Source: Paenibacillus graminis (GTDB taxonomy: Bacteria > Bacillota > Bacilli > Paenibacillales > Paenibacillaceae). Taken from it: a DNA stretch of 64,000 nucleotides. Below, piece after piece: positions 22,684 to 29,029 of this stretch. The position numbers and the translations under genes were made by a program. The stretch lies in the NCBI RefSeq assembly GCF_000758705.1, contig NZ_CP009287.1, positions 1,550,001-1,614,000 of the forward strand, in the 5' to 3' direction. The notes beneath the pieces are model-generated. The model was not told the origin of the DNA and did no database searches. It saw only the letters and a program-made list of their open reading frames with translations. Position 1 is the first letter of the stretch. Each line of letters begins with the position of its first letter.

Positions 22684-23214
22684 GTAGGTTCTCTCCTATT
22701 GGGTCAGCTTAGCTTCCTGAATATCTTCATACAAATGCTTCGGAAGCCTAAGCTTAGATTTGGGGAGCCTGTGCGGTGGGCATGGCTCTTTCTCTGAACA
22801 AGCTGGTAGTGCTCTGTGGTTTCAGAATGCGCAGCTTCCGAAGGAAAAGCGCTTGGATTCCACAATTTAAAGACTGATTCTGTACCGGGTCAAAAAAATC
22901 ATTGGTCGGATGAAATCAATAGGCTTGGTTCTTCGTCCTCTTTTGCGGCAGGGGCAGGCTCTGGGCTGAGCTCTGCCGTCAGCATATTGACACGGCAAAA
23001 TGGTTTGTAAAATCAAGTTGCCCAAATTGTATCTTAAAACAGGGGGGAGGACAAGACAGAACTGGCACTGGACCACCCGAAAAAGGCCTGAAGCCTCTGA
23101 AATAGAGCCAGAGGCTGGACAAAAAAGCCAGCGCTTGGTATACTTCGATAACCGTACATTTGTTCTTATTTTTACTTCTGAAGTCCCTACATCTTAGAAA
23201 GGAGCGGGTACACC
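22684..23214. other. Intergenic region without a recognisable gene
   Basis: 531 bases between divergently placed genes. It holds a short hairpin (AGCCTCTG with CAGAGGCT, 23092-23116) and a possible promoter for the downstream membrane hydrolase. No conserved open frame, RNA or repeat family was recognised. Confidence 0.5.
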
Positions 23215-23934
23215 ATGATGGGCAAATCCCATTTAATTATCAGCACCGGGGTTACCCTATCTGTCATGAGCCTGCTCGGCCATGAAATAACGATTCCGGC
23301 GGTTGCCGTGGCAGGACTCAGTGCCCTCCTGCCCGATATTGATGAGCCGAATTCGCTGCTGGTGCGCAAAGCCGTGCCGGAATTCCTGCTGCGGATTTTG
23401 CAGGTATCCCTGATCGGGGCGGCTATTTATCTGTATTTTGCCGGAATCGCCGCGCCCCCCTGGAATATCGCGCTGGCGCTGCTAGTCGGGAGCGTGTCCT
23501 TCCTGCCGGGCCGCAGGCTCCGGCATCTCGTGATGCTGCTGCTGGCACTGGCGCTGTTCGCGTTCGCGGATGCCTACGATCCTTGGAACTACATAGCCGC
23601 CTGCGTGCTTGTCGTATCCTCGGTTGTTCCGCACCGCGGACTGACGCATACGCTGTACGCCGTGGCCGGCTGGGGGGCCTTGCTTTATTTTGCTTCGCTC
23701 GGCATGAATGACGGCGGCAGCCTGTGGATTGCCGGCGGCCTGTCTTATGCGCTGCATCTGCTGGCTGATTCCTTGACCCAGCGCGGTATTACTCCGCTGC
23801 CTCCGCTGCCCTTCAAGCTTCGCCTGAAGCTGATGAGCACCGGCACGAAGAAGGGCAGTGCGGTGGAGAAATTCTGTATCGTGCTCACACTGGTGCTGGT
23901 TATGTATGTATTTGTGCTCACCCCCAATCTGTAA
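23215..23934 (+). CDS. YdjM-family membrane-bound metal-dependent hydrolase
   Basis: A 239-residue polytopic membrane protein of the YdjM/DUF457 family. Metal-ligand candidates are the histidine in GKSHLIISTG, the LLPDIDEPNS motif, HRGLTHT and HLLADSLTQRGI. Hydrophobic helices lie between them. E. coli YdjM is LexA-regulated and called a hydrolase by homology; the substrate is unknown. It starts after AAAGGAGCGGG and ends before a terminator. Confidence 0.88.
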   Translation: MMGKSHLIISTGVTLSVMSLLGHEITIPAVAVAGLSALLPDIDEPNSLLVRKAVPEFLLRILQVSLIGAAIYLYFAGIAAPPWNIALALLVGSVSFLPGRRLRHLVMLLLALALFAFADAYDPWNYIAACVLVVSSVVPHRGLTHTLYAVAGWGALLYFASLGMNDGGSLWIAGGLSYALHLLADSLTQRGITPLPPLPFKLRLKLMSTGTKKGSAVEKFCIVLTLVLVMYVFVLTPNL

Positions 23935-23953
23935 AAAGTTGCTGCTCCATCTT

Positions 23954-23991
23954 AAAGACTCTCTGCCGCATAATGCGGCGGGAGTCTTTTT
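23954..23991 (+). terminator. Terminator after the YdjM-family gene
   Basis: AAAGACTCTCTGCCGCA pairs with TGCGGCGGGAGTCTTT (one mispaired position), followed by TTTT. Confidence 0.85.
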
Positions 23992-24270
23992 GCTGCCGGA
24001 GCTACGGTTGCAGCGCGGGGGACGGCGGCTGGATCAATCATCGGCAACTCCTCGTTTTCCCGGCCTTCCGGTATTAAGAGGGTCTGTGAAAAAAATGAAA
24101 GAGGGCCGTTAAATTTAAGCTCCTAGTAATCCAAGAACGTCCTTGCTTCAGTAAGCCTTTACTACTAATACATATAATTAATAATCTGTATTTATTTGCT
24201 TTAATTCCATTGAATCCTATTTGTTCGGCGGTAAAATATAGGAACAAATGTTCTTTTTTTATTGGAAAAT

Positions 24271-24302
24271 GGTTGTAAAAAGCCGGACTCATCTCTCTTT
24301 AT
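24271..24302 (+). promoter_or_regulatory. Putative alternative-sigma promoter element, copy A (upstream of the sigma module)
   Basis: GGTTGTAAA, seven variable bases, then ACTCATCTCTCTTTAT, about 43 bases before the sigma-factor gene. The same two blocks with the same 7-base gap occur at 25114-25145 before the lysozyme gene, with 24 of 25 block positions identical. No sigma-A promoter is obvious here. The rest of the 410-base gap (23935-24344) holds only the terminator above and AT-rich sequence. Confidence 0.6.
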
Positions 24303-24344
24303 TAAGTAGGAGCAATCTCTTCATAAGGAAAGGGGGGGCTTATA

Positions 24345-24740
24345 TTGAATAAGGATGATGAGGTAAATCGTCGTTTTATCAAGTATATGGCCAATCTTAT
24401 TCACAATAACTCTATCAATTATGACAAAAAGAGACGAATGAAGGACAGCCGATTCCCGCTGACTTTAGACAACGATGAAAACCTAGAATCTGTCTTACTT
24501 ACTGTTCATGATTCAGAATCTGTGCCACCAAATTTAAAAGATCACATTACGGATCATTCACTTTATCGAGCTTGTGAATCCCTTCCAGAACAACAACAAC
24601 AGATACTATCACTAGCTTATGTTCAAGGGCTCAATGACAAGGAAATAGCCGGAATATTGGGAGTATCCCAACAAAATGTCTCGAAACACCGCTTAAAAGC
24701 TCTAACTAAATTGCGCAGCTTAATAACGGAAGGAGGATGA
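24345..24740 (+). CDS. Sigma-70-like factor, region 4 (SigO/YvrI-like)
   Basis: A 131-residue protein. Residues about 74-127 form a sigma region 4 helix-turn-helix: CESLPEQQQQILSLAYVQG, then DKEIAGILGVSQQNVSKHRL. The N-terminal 70 residues carry no clear region 2. It is followed by YvrJ-like and RsoA-like genes, the same partners as the B. subtilis split sigma-O system, so it probably needs the RsoA-like protein to form a working sigma factor. It is shorter than B. subtilis SigO. The start is TTG 24345 after AAAGGGGGGG. Codon use is AT-rich. Confidence 0.8.
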   Translation: MNKDDEVNRRFIKYMANLIHNNSINYDKKRRMKDSRFPLTLDNDENLESVLLTVHDSESVPPNLKDHITDHSLYRACESLPEQQQQILSLAYVQGLNDKEIAGILGVSQQNVSKHRLKALTKLRSLITEGG

Positions 24741-24899
24741 ATGATGACGGAGGGTGACATTGCTACTTTTATTGCTAATTTAGGCTTCCCGATTGCAATT
24801 ACTTTATATCTACTTATTCGTTTTGAAAAAAAAATATCGGATCTAAGCGATGCCATTAATGGCTTGAAGAATGAAATACAAAAAAACGTAAAGCGGTGA
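24741..24899 (+). CDS. YvrJ family small membrane protein
   Basis: A 52-residue protein. One membrane helix (about 9-27, FIANLGFPIAITLYLLIRF) is followed by a charged amphipathic tail (EKKISDLSDAINGLKNEIQKN). This matches the YvrJ family, which in B. subtilis sits beside the split sigma-O genes. It starts directly after the sigma gene stop with AGGAGGATGA upstream, so the two are co-translated. ATG 24744 is an alternative start. The role is unknown; a holin- or sensor-like membrane function would fit its shape. Confidence 0.82.
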   Translation: MMTEGDIATFIANLGFPIAITLYLLIRFEKKISDLSDAINGLKNEIQKNVKR

Positions 24900-24903
24900 T
24901 TTT

Positions 24904-25101
24904 ATGTTGGCCGAACTTTTAGTACAAGCACAGCAACACCACGATCAGGGGGCAACACTACATATCCTAGAATCTTTCACACCAAAGATCAAAGCCTCCT
25001 TGCGACAAGTCCCCGCCGATCATCGGGAAGATTTGAAACAGGAACTCTATGTGAAAATGATTGAGGTGATACAAACTTTTGATATTAGTGAATTGAAATA
25101 A
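24904..25101 (+). CDS. RsoA-like sigma co-factor (sigma region 2-like / HTH_16)
   Basis: A 65-residue protein. The segment LRQVPADHREDLKQELYVKMIEVIQTFD resembles the core-binding helix of sigma region 2 as found in RsoA (YvrHa) and conjugative-element regulators. It lies 4 bases after the YvrJ-like gene. In B. subtilis the region 2-like RsoA and the region 4-bearing SigO act together, and the gene order here argues for the same division of labour. Confidence 0.72.
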   Translation: MLAELLVQAQQHHDQGATLHILESFTPKIKASLRQVPADHREDLKQELYVKMIEVIQTFDISELK

Positions 25102-25113
25102 AATTAGGAGAGT

Positions 25114-25145
25114 GGTTGTAAATAAAGAGACTCATTTCTCTTTAT
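25114..25145 (+). promoter_or_regulatory. Putative alternative-sigma promoter element, copy B (upstream of the lysozyme gene)
   Basis: GGTTGTAAA, seven bases, ACTCATTTCTCTTTAT: nearly identical to copy A before the sigma gene. It sits about 106 bases before the lysozyme ATG. Matching elements in front of a sigma gene and a neighbouring effector gene suggest an autoregulated sigma factor and its target. Confidence 0.6.
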
Positions 25146-25250
25146 ATAATGTGAAGGCAATACGGCATTGCAGAAAACTTGGGAATGGTGCTCTGGCTTT
25201 GATTCCTCCTGATTGTTCTTCTACTAAAAATAATTTCAGGAGTGATTATT

Positions 25251-25553
25251 ATGAATCTAGGAACCGGTGGATCAACCCTTATCAAATCGCATGAGGGATT
25301 TTCCTTGAAATTTTATGGAGATCCTGCTGGGTATCCAACAGTTGGATGGGGGCATCTGATAACAAGGACTAAAACATATACTAAAAATACATCAGGTAAT
25401 CCAAATACGTCTCTTCTAACCCAAGCAGAAGCTAATGCTCTATCAAGCTCTTTAAATCTAGGTTATACTTCACCAATTTCTCAGGCTAAGGCAAAGACTT
25501 TTTTTGCTGAAGATACTGCAGAGGCTGTAGCGGCGGCAGTGACACAAACTTAA
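25251..25553 (+). pseudogene. Truncated phage-type lysozyme (GH24)
   Basis: 100 codons similar to the N-terminal part of T4-type endolysins. IKSHEGFSLKFYGDPAGYPTVGWGHLI contains the Glu, Asp and Thr expected of the GH24 active site. A normal protein would be about 150 residues or more; the frame ends where IS3 transposase-like sequence begins, so the 3' part was probably lost on insertion. AGGAGTGATT precedes the ATG, and promoter element B lies upstream. The product is unlikely to be fully active. Confidence 0.75.
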
Positions 25554-25555
25554 CC

Positions 25556-25777
25556 CGTCATCAAGTCAGCGAGCGCACCATTGGTAAATACATGAGAGAG
25601 CTGGGTTTGGGCTCTTGTGTAGCGAAGCAATTTCGAGTAAATACCACCGACTCTAAGCACGACTTGCCGATTGCCCCTAACTTGCTCTACTAGCAATTTT
25701 CTACAGCGAAACGGAATCAAACCTGGGTCACGGACATCACCTATATTCCCTGCCGGGAAGGGAGGATGTACCCTTAA
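25556..25777 (+). mobile_element. IS3-family transposase (OrfB) remnant
   Basis: Translation in one frame gives VSERTIGKYMRELGL, then after a TAG stop QFSTAKRNQTWVTDITYIPC, the start of the integrase core of IS3-type OrfB proteins. There is an in-frame stop, both ends are missing, and no terminal inverted repeats were found. It abuts the truncated lysozyme gene and probably caused its loss. Confidence 0.75.
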
Positions 25778-25929
25778 TATAGTCCAACTGTGACGCCTGG
25801 GCGGTGAAATCAAAGGTATTTATACCTTAGATATAGGCCAAGTGCGCCCGGGCAGTGAAATCAAAGGTATTTATACCCTTAGATATAGGCCAAGTGCGCC
25901 CAGGCAGTGAAACCAAAGGTATTTATACC
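25771..25929 (+). repeat. Tandem repeat of 51-52 bases, three copies
   Basis: The block GGTATTTATACC recurs at 25815, 25866 and 25918, with conserved intervening sequence containing ATATAGGCCAAGTGCGCC. The first copy is the most diverged. It directly follows the IS3 remnant. Confidence 0.8.
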
Positions 25930-25955
25930 TTTGATTCGCACGGCTATATCACCAC

Positions 25956-26006
25956 AAAAGGGCGGGCCCGCATATAATAACTACGGCCCGCCCTTCTCTT
26001 TTTTCA
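25956..26006. terminator. Terminator between the repeat and lplA
   Basis: AAGGGCGGGCC pairs with GGCCCGCCCTT around a 14-base loop; CTTTTTT follows on the plus strand and an A-rich run precedes. It serves the leftward lplA gene. Confidence 0.8.
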
Positions 26007-26027
26007 TATTCAGCTTTCCTGCTTGTT

Positions 26028-27029
26028 CTATTCCTCCAGGAATATCAGCCCGATGAAGTCCTCCGGCTCAATGCGGCCGAAATAATGCTTCAGGTCCAGT
26101 CCGGCTAGAGCTTCTCTGACCTCTGCTTCTTCATAACGCTTGCCGCGCAGCGCATTCTCCACATCTGCCACATCGCCTACACCGAAGAAATCGCCGTAGA
26201 TTTTGATATCCCTGATGTAAGAATCTTCAATATCCATGCGGATGTCGACGAGTCCTGCCGGGAATTTGCGGGTGTGCTTTACATTGCTTTTTGGCGACAG
26301 GCCGTAGTTCCAGTCCCAGTTCTGGTAGTGCTCCCTGGAAATTTCATTGATCCGCACCCAATCGTCCATAGTCAGCTTATACTGCGGAACCTCGGAAGGC
26401 TCCATGCCGAAGATGGAACGCAGCAGGCCCGCACGGAATTCCTCAATCGTCATCTCTTTTCCGAGCAGGTCTTTGATATTGGCGACGCGGCTGCGCACGG
26501 ATTTGGTGCTCTTGGATTTGAATTTCTCCGGGTTCACATTCAGCGAAGCCTGCACATCGTCCAGATTAAGGTCAAACATCAGGGTGCCGTGGCTGAACAT
26601 GCGTCCACGTGTGGAGAATTGGGCGTTGCCGGAGATTTTTTGCACACCGACCTGAAGGTCATTGCGCCCGCTCAGTTCGGCGTTCACCCCCATGGATTGC
26701 AGGTAGTCGATAACCGGCTGGGTGAATTTCAGGAAATTATGAAAAGACTGCCCGTCGTCCTTGGTGATAAAGCTGAAGTTAAGGTTGCCCAGATCGTGAT
26801 AGACCGCCCCGCCGCCGGATAGCCGCCGCACGACCTGAATATTATGGTCTTTCACATATTCCTGGTTGATTTCTTCAATGGTATTCTGATGTTTGCCAAT
26901 GATAATGGACGGGCTGTTGATATAAAAAAGCAGATAACTGTCGTCCATCGGCAGGTTTTTCAGGGCAAATTCCTCAATCGCTAGATTGATCGAAGCGTCT
27001 GTAATTCCGGTGTTATCGATAAAAAGCAT
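26028..27029 (-). CDS. lplA: Lipoate--protein ligase
   Basis: A 333-residue ligase that activates free lipoate with ATP and attaches it to E2 and GcvH lipoyl domains. The N-terminal catalytic domain has RRLSGGGAVYHDLGNLNFSF and an upstream ENTIEEIN-like GKHQNTIEEIN segment. The accessory domain occupies the last 90 residues. The frame is open a further 249 bases upstream, but ATG 27029 has GGAGG 8 bases before it and gives the normal length (LplJ/LplA type). It is divergent from the cobalamin genes. Confidence 0.94.
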   Translation of the reverse strand: MLFIDNTGITDASINLAIEEFALKNLPMDDSYLLFYINSPSIIIGKHQNTIEEINQEYVKDHNIQVVRRLSGGGAVYHDLGNLNFSFITKDDGQSFHNFLKFTQPVIDYLQSMGVNAELSGRNDLQVGVQKISGNAQFSTRGRMFSHGTLMFDLNLDDVQASLNVNPEKFKSKSTKSVRSRVANIKDLLGKEMTIEEFRAGLLRSIFGMEPSEVPQYKLTMDDWVRINEISREHYQNWDWNYGLSPKSNVKHTRKFPAGLVDIRMDIEDSYIRDIKIYGDFFGVGDVADVENALRGKRYEEAEVREALAGLDLKHYFGRIEPEDFIGLIFLEE

Positions 27030-27257
27030 GGTGAATTCCTCCGCTTGTGCATGATTAACTGCTCTAATTATTTTAAACCAAAAGCGCGGTTTGTACAAAA
27101 AGAACAAGCAGCGATGAGGCAAAGCCAACCTCTCGTCAAACGGCAATGCCTGCTGTGGCCGGGGAGTGAAATCATTGACGTACCTCCTGCAATGGGGCAA
27201 TAATGGGGTCAATGAGTCACATAGAGTTATAATCGATAGGCTAAGAGGAGTGTAGGC

Positions 27258-28349
27258 ATGCTTGAAAAATACGGCCACGGCGGCGATTTGCTGACAGCGG
27301 CGGAACTGTATGGGGAGGGGGGCGGCGCTTTTGTGGATTTCAGCGCGAATATCAACCCCCTTGGCCCGCCGCCCGGCGTGCTGAATCTGCTGCGGGATGC
27401 AGTCTCAGCCGTGACGGCTTATCCTGACCCCGGCCACCGCAGATTGAAGTCCCTGCTGGCGGAGAGTCTGGGCGTTGACATCGAATGGATTACGGTAGGC
27501 AACGGGGCGGCGGAATCGATGGCTCTGCTGCTGCTGGCTGCGGCTCCGAGCAGGGTAGGGATCGTCGAGCCCTGCTTCTCCGAGTACCGCCAGCTCGCGG
27601 AGCAGTTCGGTGCGGAGGTCCTCTCGGTCCGGGGAACGAAGGAGCAGGGCTACCGGGCCGGTGTGAAGAGCATCGCCGGACTGCTGGAACAGGTGGATCT
27701 GCTGTTTCTCGGACAGCCGAACAACCCGAATGGCGTCCAGTATGCGCTGGACGACCTCCGGCTGCTGGCGCAGCAGGCGGAGCGCTGCGGGACGGTGCTG
27801 GCGGTGGATGAAGCGTTCATCGACTTCATCCCGGAAGAGCGGCGGCAATCGCTGCTGCCGGAGCTTAAGAGTTACCGTCATACGGTGCTGATCCGCTCGA
27901 TGACGAAGTTTTATGCCATTCCGGGGCTGCGGCTGGGCTTCACCATCGCCGCCCCGGAGCTTGCCGCAGCCATGACCGGCAAGCAGGTGACCTGGAGCGT
28001 GAACGGCCTGGCGCTGCTGGCCGGGGAAGCCTGCCTGCGCAGCGGGCGCGATTATGAAGAGCGCACGCGCGGGCTGATTGCCGCAGAGCGTGAAGCGCTG
28101 CGGCAGGGCCTGCTGCGGCTCGGCTGCGAAGTGCCGCCGGGCGAAGCGAACTTCCTGCTGCTTGGCCTGCCCGCACCCTGGAGCGCTGCGGTCCTGCAGG
28201 AGAAGCTGGGCCGCAGCGGCATCCTTGTGCGCAGCTGCGCGATGTACCCAGGCCTTGCACCGGGGCATATCCGCGTCGCGGTCAAAGGCCGCAGCGACAA
28301 TGTCCGCCTGCTGCGGCAGCTGGAGGAGATTATCGCGGCAGAGGCCTGA
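27258..28349 (+). CDS. cobD: Threonine-phosphate decarboxylase (CobD)
   Basis: A 363-residue PLP enzyme related to histidinol-phosphate aminotransferase. The start LEKYGHGGDLLTAAE with DFSANINPLGPP is diagnostic of CobD, and the Schiff-base lysine is in SMTKFYAIPGLRLGF (Lys217). It makes (R)-1-amino-2-propanol phosphate, the linker between the corrin ring and the lower nucleotide loop. It is the first gene of the cobalamin region, with AGAGGAG upstream. The 3' side is a long repeat-rich gap. Confidence 0.92.
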   Translation: MLEKYGHGGDLLTAAELYGEGGGAFVDFSANINPLGPPPGVLNLLRDAVSAVTAYPDPGHRRLKSLLAESLGVDIEWITVGNGAAESMALLLLAAAPSRVGIVEPCFSEYRQLAEQFGAEVLSVRGTKEQGYRAGVKSIAGLLEQVDLLFLGQPNNPNGVQYALDDLRLLAQQAERCGTVLAVDEAFIDFIPEERRQSLLPELKSYRHTVLIRSMTKFYAIPGLRLGFTIAAPELAAAMTGKQVTWSVNGLALLAGEACLRSGRDYEERTRGLIAAEREALRQGLLRLGCEVPPGEANFLLLGLPAPWSAAVLQEKLGRSGILVRSCAMYPGLAPGHIRVAVKGRSDNVRLLRQLEEIIAAEA

Positions 28350-28436
28350 CGGTGATAAAAAGCGCACAGCCCAATGGCATAACCGGCAGTAAAACGCAAG
28401 GCGCGGAGGCCGGTGCGCTGAATAGCTGGGGAAGCG

Positions 28437-28676
28437 CCGAGTAGAAGCGGAAGCAGCAAGTTGCGGGTATTGTACGGAGTAGAAGCGGTAGTAGTAAGTT
28501 GCGGGTATTGTGCGGAGTAGAAGCGGTAGCAGTAAGTTGCGGGTATTGTGCGGAGTAGAAGTGGAAGCAGCAAGTGGCGGGCATCGTGCGGAGTAGAAGC
28601 GGAAGCAGCAAGTTGCGGGTATTGTGCGGAGTAGAAGCGGTAGTAGCAAGTGGCGGGCATCCTACGGAGTAAAAGC
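28437..28676. repeat. Minisatellite: 38-base unit, about 6.3 copies
   Basis: GTAGAAGCGG starts copies at 28441, 28479, 28517, 28555, 28593, 28631 and (diverged) 28669, exactly 38 bases apart. Copies differ at a few positions (AAGCAGCAAG or TAGTAGTAAG; TTGCGGGTATTGT or TGGCGGGCATCGT). Because 38 is not a multiple of three, all frames of the minus strand stay open through it, which creates long artificial reading frames. Confidence 0.95.
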
Positions 28677-28786
28677 GTGAATAAAACAGTCTTCACCCAT
28701 ACTTTGGTAGCCCCGGTGCTGCAAATGATGGATGTACAAGCCGAGGTCCTTCAATGTTTTCGACTAATCTGCCCTTGCGAAAAGTT

Positions 28787-28921
28787 TAAGTGGAATTAGG
28801 TAACTTAATTCATTGAATTACGGCTCGAAATGGGGGATTAGTGGGATTTTGTAAACTTAATTTGAGGTGAATCCCCAAATATGGGAGAATGATCCCTAAT
28901 TAAGTATACTTTTTCCAACTA
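28787..28921. repeat. Dispersed intergenic repeat family 1, copy 2 (diverged)
   Basis: A forward arm AAGTGGAATTAGGTAACTTAA at 28789 and an opposed arm ending TACTTTTTCCAACT at about 28908-28921 enclose a middle with GGATTAGTGGG. It lies in the gap between cobD and cbiZ (28350-29029), which otherwise holds the 38-base minisatellite and no gene. Confidence 0.6.
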
Positions 28922-29029
28922 ACGTTTGCAGGAACGGTATTTGGCCCCGATTAGTTGGAGAAATTCCACGTAATAGCTGGGGGGTATTGATAGCTGTTGG
29001 ATTATGAGTGTGAAGGGAGAGAATATACA

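Follow-up and report, generated by a model that had tools for sequence, protein, structure and literature searches.

We consider it likely that a small gene cassette of Paenibacillus graminis is an SOS-induced, self-amplifying switch in which a split sigma factor controls bacteriocin-like lysins together with their cognate immunity. What we observed is the conservation and placement of a two-block element, LexA-type boxes, class matching between effectors and partner proteins, partners that stand without an effector, and one joint swap of an effector with its partner; sigma binding, SOS induction, secretion, killing and immunity are what we infer. The cassette lies in a window of 64,000 nucleotides (the whole stretch analysed, contig NZ_CP009287.1, positions 1,550,001 to 1,614,000), whose own numbering is used below.

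The cassette and its recurrence in the family

The plus strand of the window carries a sigma-A-like promoter found by consensus scan (TTGAAT-16-TAAAAT, 24210..24237), the probable trigger, followed by a putative autoregulatory split-sigma promoter element, A (24271..24302), with the core GGTTGT-N18-CTCTTTAT. Between the two sits a predicted LexA/DinR-type operator, GAACAAATGTTC (24242..24253, no strand assigned), recognized as an exact GAAC-N4-GTTC pattern. Then come an unbroken gene with a TTG start for a sigma region 4 protein of 131 aa (24345..24740; Pfam Sigma70_r4, E 5.7e-12), a small, possibly holin-like membrane protein of the YvrJ family (52 aa, 24741..24899; PF12841, E 3.1e-16) and an RsoA-like region 2 protein (65 aa, 24904..25101; PF12645; HTH_16, E 1.3e-5). 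A second putative split-sigma element, B, found by pattern match and read as the effector promoter (25114..25145), precedes a truncated GH24 lysozyme gene (25251..25553; Phage_lysozyme, E 1.1e-8). Sigma region 4 and region 2 reside on separate proteins in the window; relatives of the sigma region 4 protein were found in 16 loci, and an alignment was made.

The first-pass annotation, made from the sequence letters, had already reported the repeated element, and its figures hold: both spacers measure 7 and 24 of the 25 block positions agree, block 1 being identical and block 2 matching at 15 of 16 positions. Exactly two matches with at most three mismatches occur in the window, and none in 100 shuffles. 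The protein families it had named are borne out by Pfam (Sigma70_r4, YvrJ, HTH_16, Phage_lysozyme), and it was right that the lysozyme is truncated, the 100-residue frame covering only about the first third of the Phage_lysozyme domain; in a lysozyme search of the same genome the window match spans residues 1-103, with a stop. Comparison of 23001-29000 with the reference pairs revealed no partner lipoprotein beside this lysozyme. Three imperfect direct repeats of about 50 bases with AAAGGTATTTATACC, seen by eye, lie 3' of the truncated gene at 25790-25945.

A census of 394 genomes of the family returned 80 element sites in 49 genomes at up to three mismatches and 57 sites in 33 genomes at up to two; a recount assigns 23 sites to the three-mismatch class, which we treat as mostly noise because a reversed control pattern gave 18 matches (mismatch numbers not given). 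Three-mismatch look-alikes recur in G097/G103/G105 and in G093/G135/G136/G137/G145/G152, probably by chance or through shared coding sequence. All 57 stricter sites fall in 40 fetched stretches, the window and locus L015, which were scanned together, and every one of them adjoins module genes or their remnants. The search of related genomes for the motif and its downstream genes, as first proposed, thus did not uncover a scatter of unrelated sites, and the split-sigma reading is not refuted on this count.

With two shorter-spacer sites included, 59 sites divide into 23 on the sigma side and 36 on the effector side. A sigma gene or a piece of one follows 21 of the former, the remaining two (L107, L115) being followed only by lipoprotein or lysozyme remnants, while 34 of the latter follow RsoA or its remnant; at L081 and L094 no RsoA was detected before the effector-side element. 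Behind the 36 effector-side elements stand 20 GH24 genes, 9 SleB-type, 2 glucosaminidase-like (Pfam score below cut-off), 4 hydrophobic and 1 of unknown type, with broken or truncated reading frames for the GH24 proteins of the window and L108 and for the SleB-type protein of L081. Tandem cassettes with differing effectors were found at L085, L098 and L104. The sigma profile at E 1e-12 matched in 83 of the 394 genomes; by our own count, 23 of the matches, in 21 genomes, are near-full-length short forms without stops, and the others are mostly fragments or lie in frames of about 200 residues. The module is thus patchy, and two carriers, from P. sonchi and P. xylanexedens, are plasmid-borne. At L094 (5410-5976, minus strand) there is also a distant second sigma/YvrJ pair (28-47% identity), with an RsoA-like frame seen by eye, adjoining a SleB-type effector with a strict element.

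Four element sites at up to three mismatches are present in the whole P. graminis genome (7.17 Mb), and the strict core GGTTGT-N18-CTCTTTAT is exact only at these four; one mismatch adds a single further place, vs 4 matches for the reversed control. A second cassette at C1:281 kb comprises sigma, YvrJ, a broken RsoA and an intact lysozyme of 197 residues, the spacer between the blocks of its sigma-side element being one base shorter. At C1:242 kb an element lies 3' of a broken RsoA and is followed by a gene for a cell wall hydrolase of the SleB type (PF07486, E 5.2e-11). Hence the earlier suggestion that the circuit had lost its output stands for the window lysozyme and falls for the genome, where lysozyme and hydrolase genes, both intact, carry the element elsewhere. 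An RsoA alignment search of this genome found two broken copies and one unbroken, that of the window. The unbroken RsoA being the only one found, the window cassette may act in trans on the two other loci and drive the lysozyme at 281 kb and the hydrolase at 242 kb; its own lysozyme no longer functional and its immunity gene gone, it would be left to supply RsoA to them. At L119, L087, L089 and L095, RsoA is broken at about the same part of the gene and the adjacent lysozyme is full length; such recurrent breakage could mean that the gene decayed once RsoA was supplied in trans, or could have a more regular cause. A third YvrJ-like frame of the P. graminis genome, below threshold, lies at G000:C1:5019338-5019454.

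LexA-type boxes, effectors and matched partners

The pattern GAAC-N4-GTTC is given as the LexA operator of B. subtilis (PMC4234289). It is present exactly at 19 of the 23 sigma-side sites and at none of the 36 effector-side sites, against 0.6% of random 80-mers, and it lies 14-17 bases before GGTTGT; the other four sigma-side sites have a box with one or two mismatches. By our own count, TAAAAT stands directly before the box in 18 of the 23. Exact boxes also occur in L015, L116, L096 and L130, and seven of eight distant plasmid modules have one no more than 220 bases upstream of sigma. No exact box was found in the examined stretches of L112, L093, L047-L050, L121, L134, L141, L147 and L157, nor at the B. 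subtilis-group loci L140 and L148. In the P. graminis genome two exact boxes lie upstream of lexA and none at the recA locus. The window scan that gave TTGAAT-16-TAAAAT performed no better than chance (6 found, 4.9 expected). Sigma-A promoters elsewhere in both gaps had been named as something that could speak against the split-sigma reading; since the one here adjoins the LexA-type box, we read it as the trigger and not as a refutation. The cassette is probably switched on by DNA damage, with the boxes pointing to SOS induction.

Most effectors face a partner gene head-on, and this gene has a lipobox-type or membrane leader. With a single reference pair for each class as query, we searched the stretches and found effector and partner to match in class in 33 of 33 cases, none mixed, or in 29 when the four class-defining reference pairs are set aside, many of the loci being closely related. 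GH24 lysozymes go with their own lipoprotein class at 20 loci (at L108 the lysozyme is broken), SleB-type effectors with a second partner class at 9, glucosaminidase-like ones with a third at 2, and hydrophobic effectors with a small membrane protein resembling DUF4181 (score below cut-off) at 2. The mature parts of different partner classes have no mutual BLAST match at E 1, and one leader was found on differing mature parts. Incomplete arrangements also occur. The window and L081, both with truncated effectors, have no partner in the stretch; two of the four hydrophobic effectors stand without an intact partner of their class, that of L098 having none of this class, and the hydrophobic effector of L114 looks broken near its start. 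The second effector of L085 has only a broken partner look-alike. L098, L105 and L106 contain a long extra frame between effector and partner. At L100 and L107 partners adjoin effector fragments, and L100 (G201:C1:7471500-7479500) holds both partner lipoprotein classes beside sigma and SleB-type remnants, which points to partners being kept after effector loss. A hydrophobic N-terminus was seen in none of the eight effectors tested vs all five partners. We take the effectors to be leaderless proteins that would kill, and the partners to be proteins that would protect.

The distribution of the GH24 partner is wider than that of its lysozyme. At E 1e-15 the partner occurs in 69 of 394 genomes, and 54 of these, by our own count, hold a full-length copy without stops at 63% identity or more. 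The lysozyme at E 1e-25 occurs in 25 genomes, in 23 of them at full length, and 22 of these 23 (own count) also possess a full-length partner; the exception, G185, keeps no more than part of the partner gene, and both the element and the customary start codon are gone. Conversely, 32 of the 54 partner genomes are devoid of a full-length lysozyme, 30 having no match at E 1e-25 and 2 a broken one. The co-occurrence gives a Fisher p of 2.7e-20 with kinship ignored. When 30 partner loci were inspected, about 1.5 kb to either side included, the lysozyme proved to be adjacent at 12, a fragment at 1 and nothing at 17, one of which (L179) has a lysozyme about 2 kb away. Partner homologues in Brevibacillus, at 88-89% identity, point to transfer.

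One comparison captures an exchange. G242 and G222 are 90-100% identical, with 98-100% over sigma, YvrJ, RsoA and element B; identity drops to 69-87% over the lysozyme and the mature domain of the partner, with a gap between the genes, and is back at 97-100% at the partner leader. Against G132, of another genus, high and low identity change places: sigma and YvrJ stand at 64-84%, the region around the RsoA end and element B at 90-92%, and lysozyme and partner domain at 90-100%, followed by a drop. A single block exchange of lysozyme plus partner domain explains this pattern; the two were replaced as one block, and the sigma genes and the leader stayed.

We propose the following scenario, with the window holding one copy of a mobile effector/immunity cassette. 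At rest, LexA would occupy the box beside the sigma-A promoter; DNA damage would free that promoter and allow a small amount of sigma, YvrJ and RsoA to be made. Joined to RNA polymerase, the two sigma pieces would recognize GGTTGT-N18-CTCTTTAT, boosting expression of the operon that encodes them and switching on the effector gene. Its product, a peptidoglycan hydrolase with no leader or some other exchangeable protein, may be aided by YvrJ in leaving the cell, and the head-on lipoprotein or membrane protein would shield the producer and its immune neighbours. The anatomy supports the first-pass idea that a split sigma factor regulates itself and has a cell-wall lytic enzyme as its target; as an account of the whole it was sound in part, having missed the immunity partner, the effector swapping, the LexA-type box and two further loci.

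Full-length partners in 30 genomes without a lysozyme match (E 1e-25) and the concerted replacement of effector and partner domain fit defence against the lysins of other cells better than they fit programmed self-lysis, in which after DNA damage the lysin would open some producers, releasing DNA or proteins, and the lipoprotein would only tune the process. LexA-type control and leaderless lysins are compatible with such lysis, and SigN of pBS32 provides a LexA-controlled, autoactivated cell death (PMC6751061), but some effectors have no hydrolase match, and on balance we find self-lysis unlikely.

YvrJ, phage relatives and the promoter core

The origin of the cassette had been tentatively sought in a captured phage late-gene switch. 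It is true that GH24 and YvrJ match phage families, the window YvrJ hitting PHROG holin 4898 at E 1.7e-5, and that on two plasmids YvrJ lies directly 3' of an amidase gene. Still, tblastn against 50,697 phage records yielded no relative of sigma or YvrJ, the viral contigs yielded no confirmed sigma relative, phage GH24 relatives all remain below 60% identity (29-31% among the 15 matches listed), and the partners are polymorphic. The suggestion is accordingly not supported, and capture of a phage late-gene or lysis cassette strikes us as very improbable.

Among 299 Bacilli genomes, 106 carry YvrJ, and only 7 of 30 YvrJ loci inspected elsewhere in Bacilli have sigma/RsoA genes. An hhalign comparison of YvrJ with BhlA is weak (23% vs 10-12% in reversed controls), and the P. 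graminis genome has no PF10960 match. At L125 (1477-2358) and L145 (1471-3011) a YvrJ gene without the sigma pair adjoins an endolysin-type peptidase (PF13539) and lies near an amidase (PF01510), neighbours that hint at a role as lysis partner. That YvrJ helps to export the effector is our guess, by analogy with what is described of the UviB/TcdE loci (PMC9527704, PMC4597214) and from the PHROG match.

Modules that have diverged beyond reach of the strict pattern keep GGTTGT and CTCTTT at exactly N18, on both sides in L015, on the sigma side in L112, and on both sides in L116, once with a mismatch. On distant Bacillaceae plasmids the core precedes, among others, genes for a glutaredoxin, for a peptidoglycan-binding protein (one mismatch) and, on two plasmids, for an S8 peptidase. 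A plasmid scan at up to one mismatch produced 21 rows, one site being counted twice and some rows being clearly chance, vs 5.9 in mononucleotide shuffles, a weak control. The sigma/YvrJ modules of the Bacillaceae plasmids L153, L155, L156, L157 and L158 often lie near genes for S8/trypsin-like peptidases and glutaredoxin, some with the core; they perhaps represent a second, plasmid-wide regulon type. That the elements are repeated leader or operator sequences copied with the cassette, rather than promoters, is scarcely credible: the cassette does duplicate, and DNA copies would look alike, yet elements A and B share both blocks at fixed spacing between differing flanks, divergent modules retain little beyond GGTTGT and CTCTTT at N18, and the core also precedes unrelated plasmid operons.

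Known systems and the meaning of the cassette

Several known systems resemble parts of the proposed switch. Pesticin, which kills by means of a lysozyme fold and has an immunity protein of its own, carries an import part and is directed at Gram-negative cells; the cassette differs in its bare GH24 protein, its Gram-positive hosts and its lipoprotein partner. Uvi-type sigma factors are defined as one-piece group V sigma factors, whereas in the cassette region 4 lies on a protein of 131 aa and region 2 is encoded by a gene of its own. The loci of the type UviA-UviB-Bcn5, known from Clostridium perfringens, are described as combining a sigma factor, a small single-helix membrane protein and a leaderless effector (PMC9527704), as the cassette does in one locus, and a holin assay of UviB is reported (PMC4597214). 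UviB belongs to the BhlA family of holins, to which YvrJ is only weakly matched, and a matched lipoprotein is not described in the passages cited for the Uvi loci (PMC9527704, PMC4597214).

For SigN (ZpdN) of pBS32 in B. subtilis, the cited report describes a LexA-repressed sigma-A promoter, a self-dependent promoter and death after DNA damage, the circuit of LexA repression and autoactivation having been shown experimentally (PMC6751061). By anatomy the cassette is alike, with a sigma-A-like promoter that bears a LexA-type box and a further promoter of the self type. SigN differs in being described as one protein, with listed promoters of the form TTTACGTTT..ATATAAT, and the passages cited describe no effector/immunity pair for it (PMC6751061). 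The cassette thus resembles SigN in input logic and the Uvi loci in layout, an unusual combination of known kinds, and the literature searched, in the parts available, contains no description of such a cassette.

SigO-RsoA (YvrI-YvrHa) of B. subtilis is reported to transcribe oxdC-yvrL, yvrJ and its own operon (PMC8103513). In both systems regions 4 and 2 of sigma are carried by two small proteins, and between the window and the B. subtilis-group locus L140 the sigma proteins are 34% identical over 125 residues and the RsoA proteins 40% over 45. The window RsoA scores only 27.8 bits against the NCBIfam NF041489 cut-off of 100, compared with 155.8 for L140; the common upstream sequence of L140 and L148 looks, by eye, like AGTTKAC..TTCAYTTAA; and the target of the cassette would be a lysin with an immunity partner. 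No oxalate decarboxylase was found among the window frames around the module or as first frame after the 36 effector-side elements. The window system is therefore related to SigO-RsoA, yet lies outside the NCBIfam RsoA model.

In the literature cited, SigO-RsoA has so far mostly been treated as a B. subtilis pair. We give an even chance to a broader proposition: that split sigmas of this type, in many Bacilli and on their plasmids, serve as dedicated switches, triggered by SOS, for a mobile and polymorphic system of bacteriolysins. Effector and surface-anchored immunity domain would be traded together as one unit while promoter and leader stay constant, and the oxalate function of SigO in B. 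subtilis would be a side branch. The relatives would then constitute a class whose promoter code can be read off (GGTTGT-N18-CTCTTTAT), whose input is of the SOS type and whose output resembles a weapon. The core would serve as a search string for regulons, new Gram-positive lysozyme/partner pairs would come within reach, and the function of the YvrJ family would become testable. If true, it would also hint at a reason for splitting a sigma factor, as an AND gate on dangerous genes.
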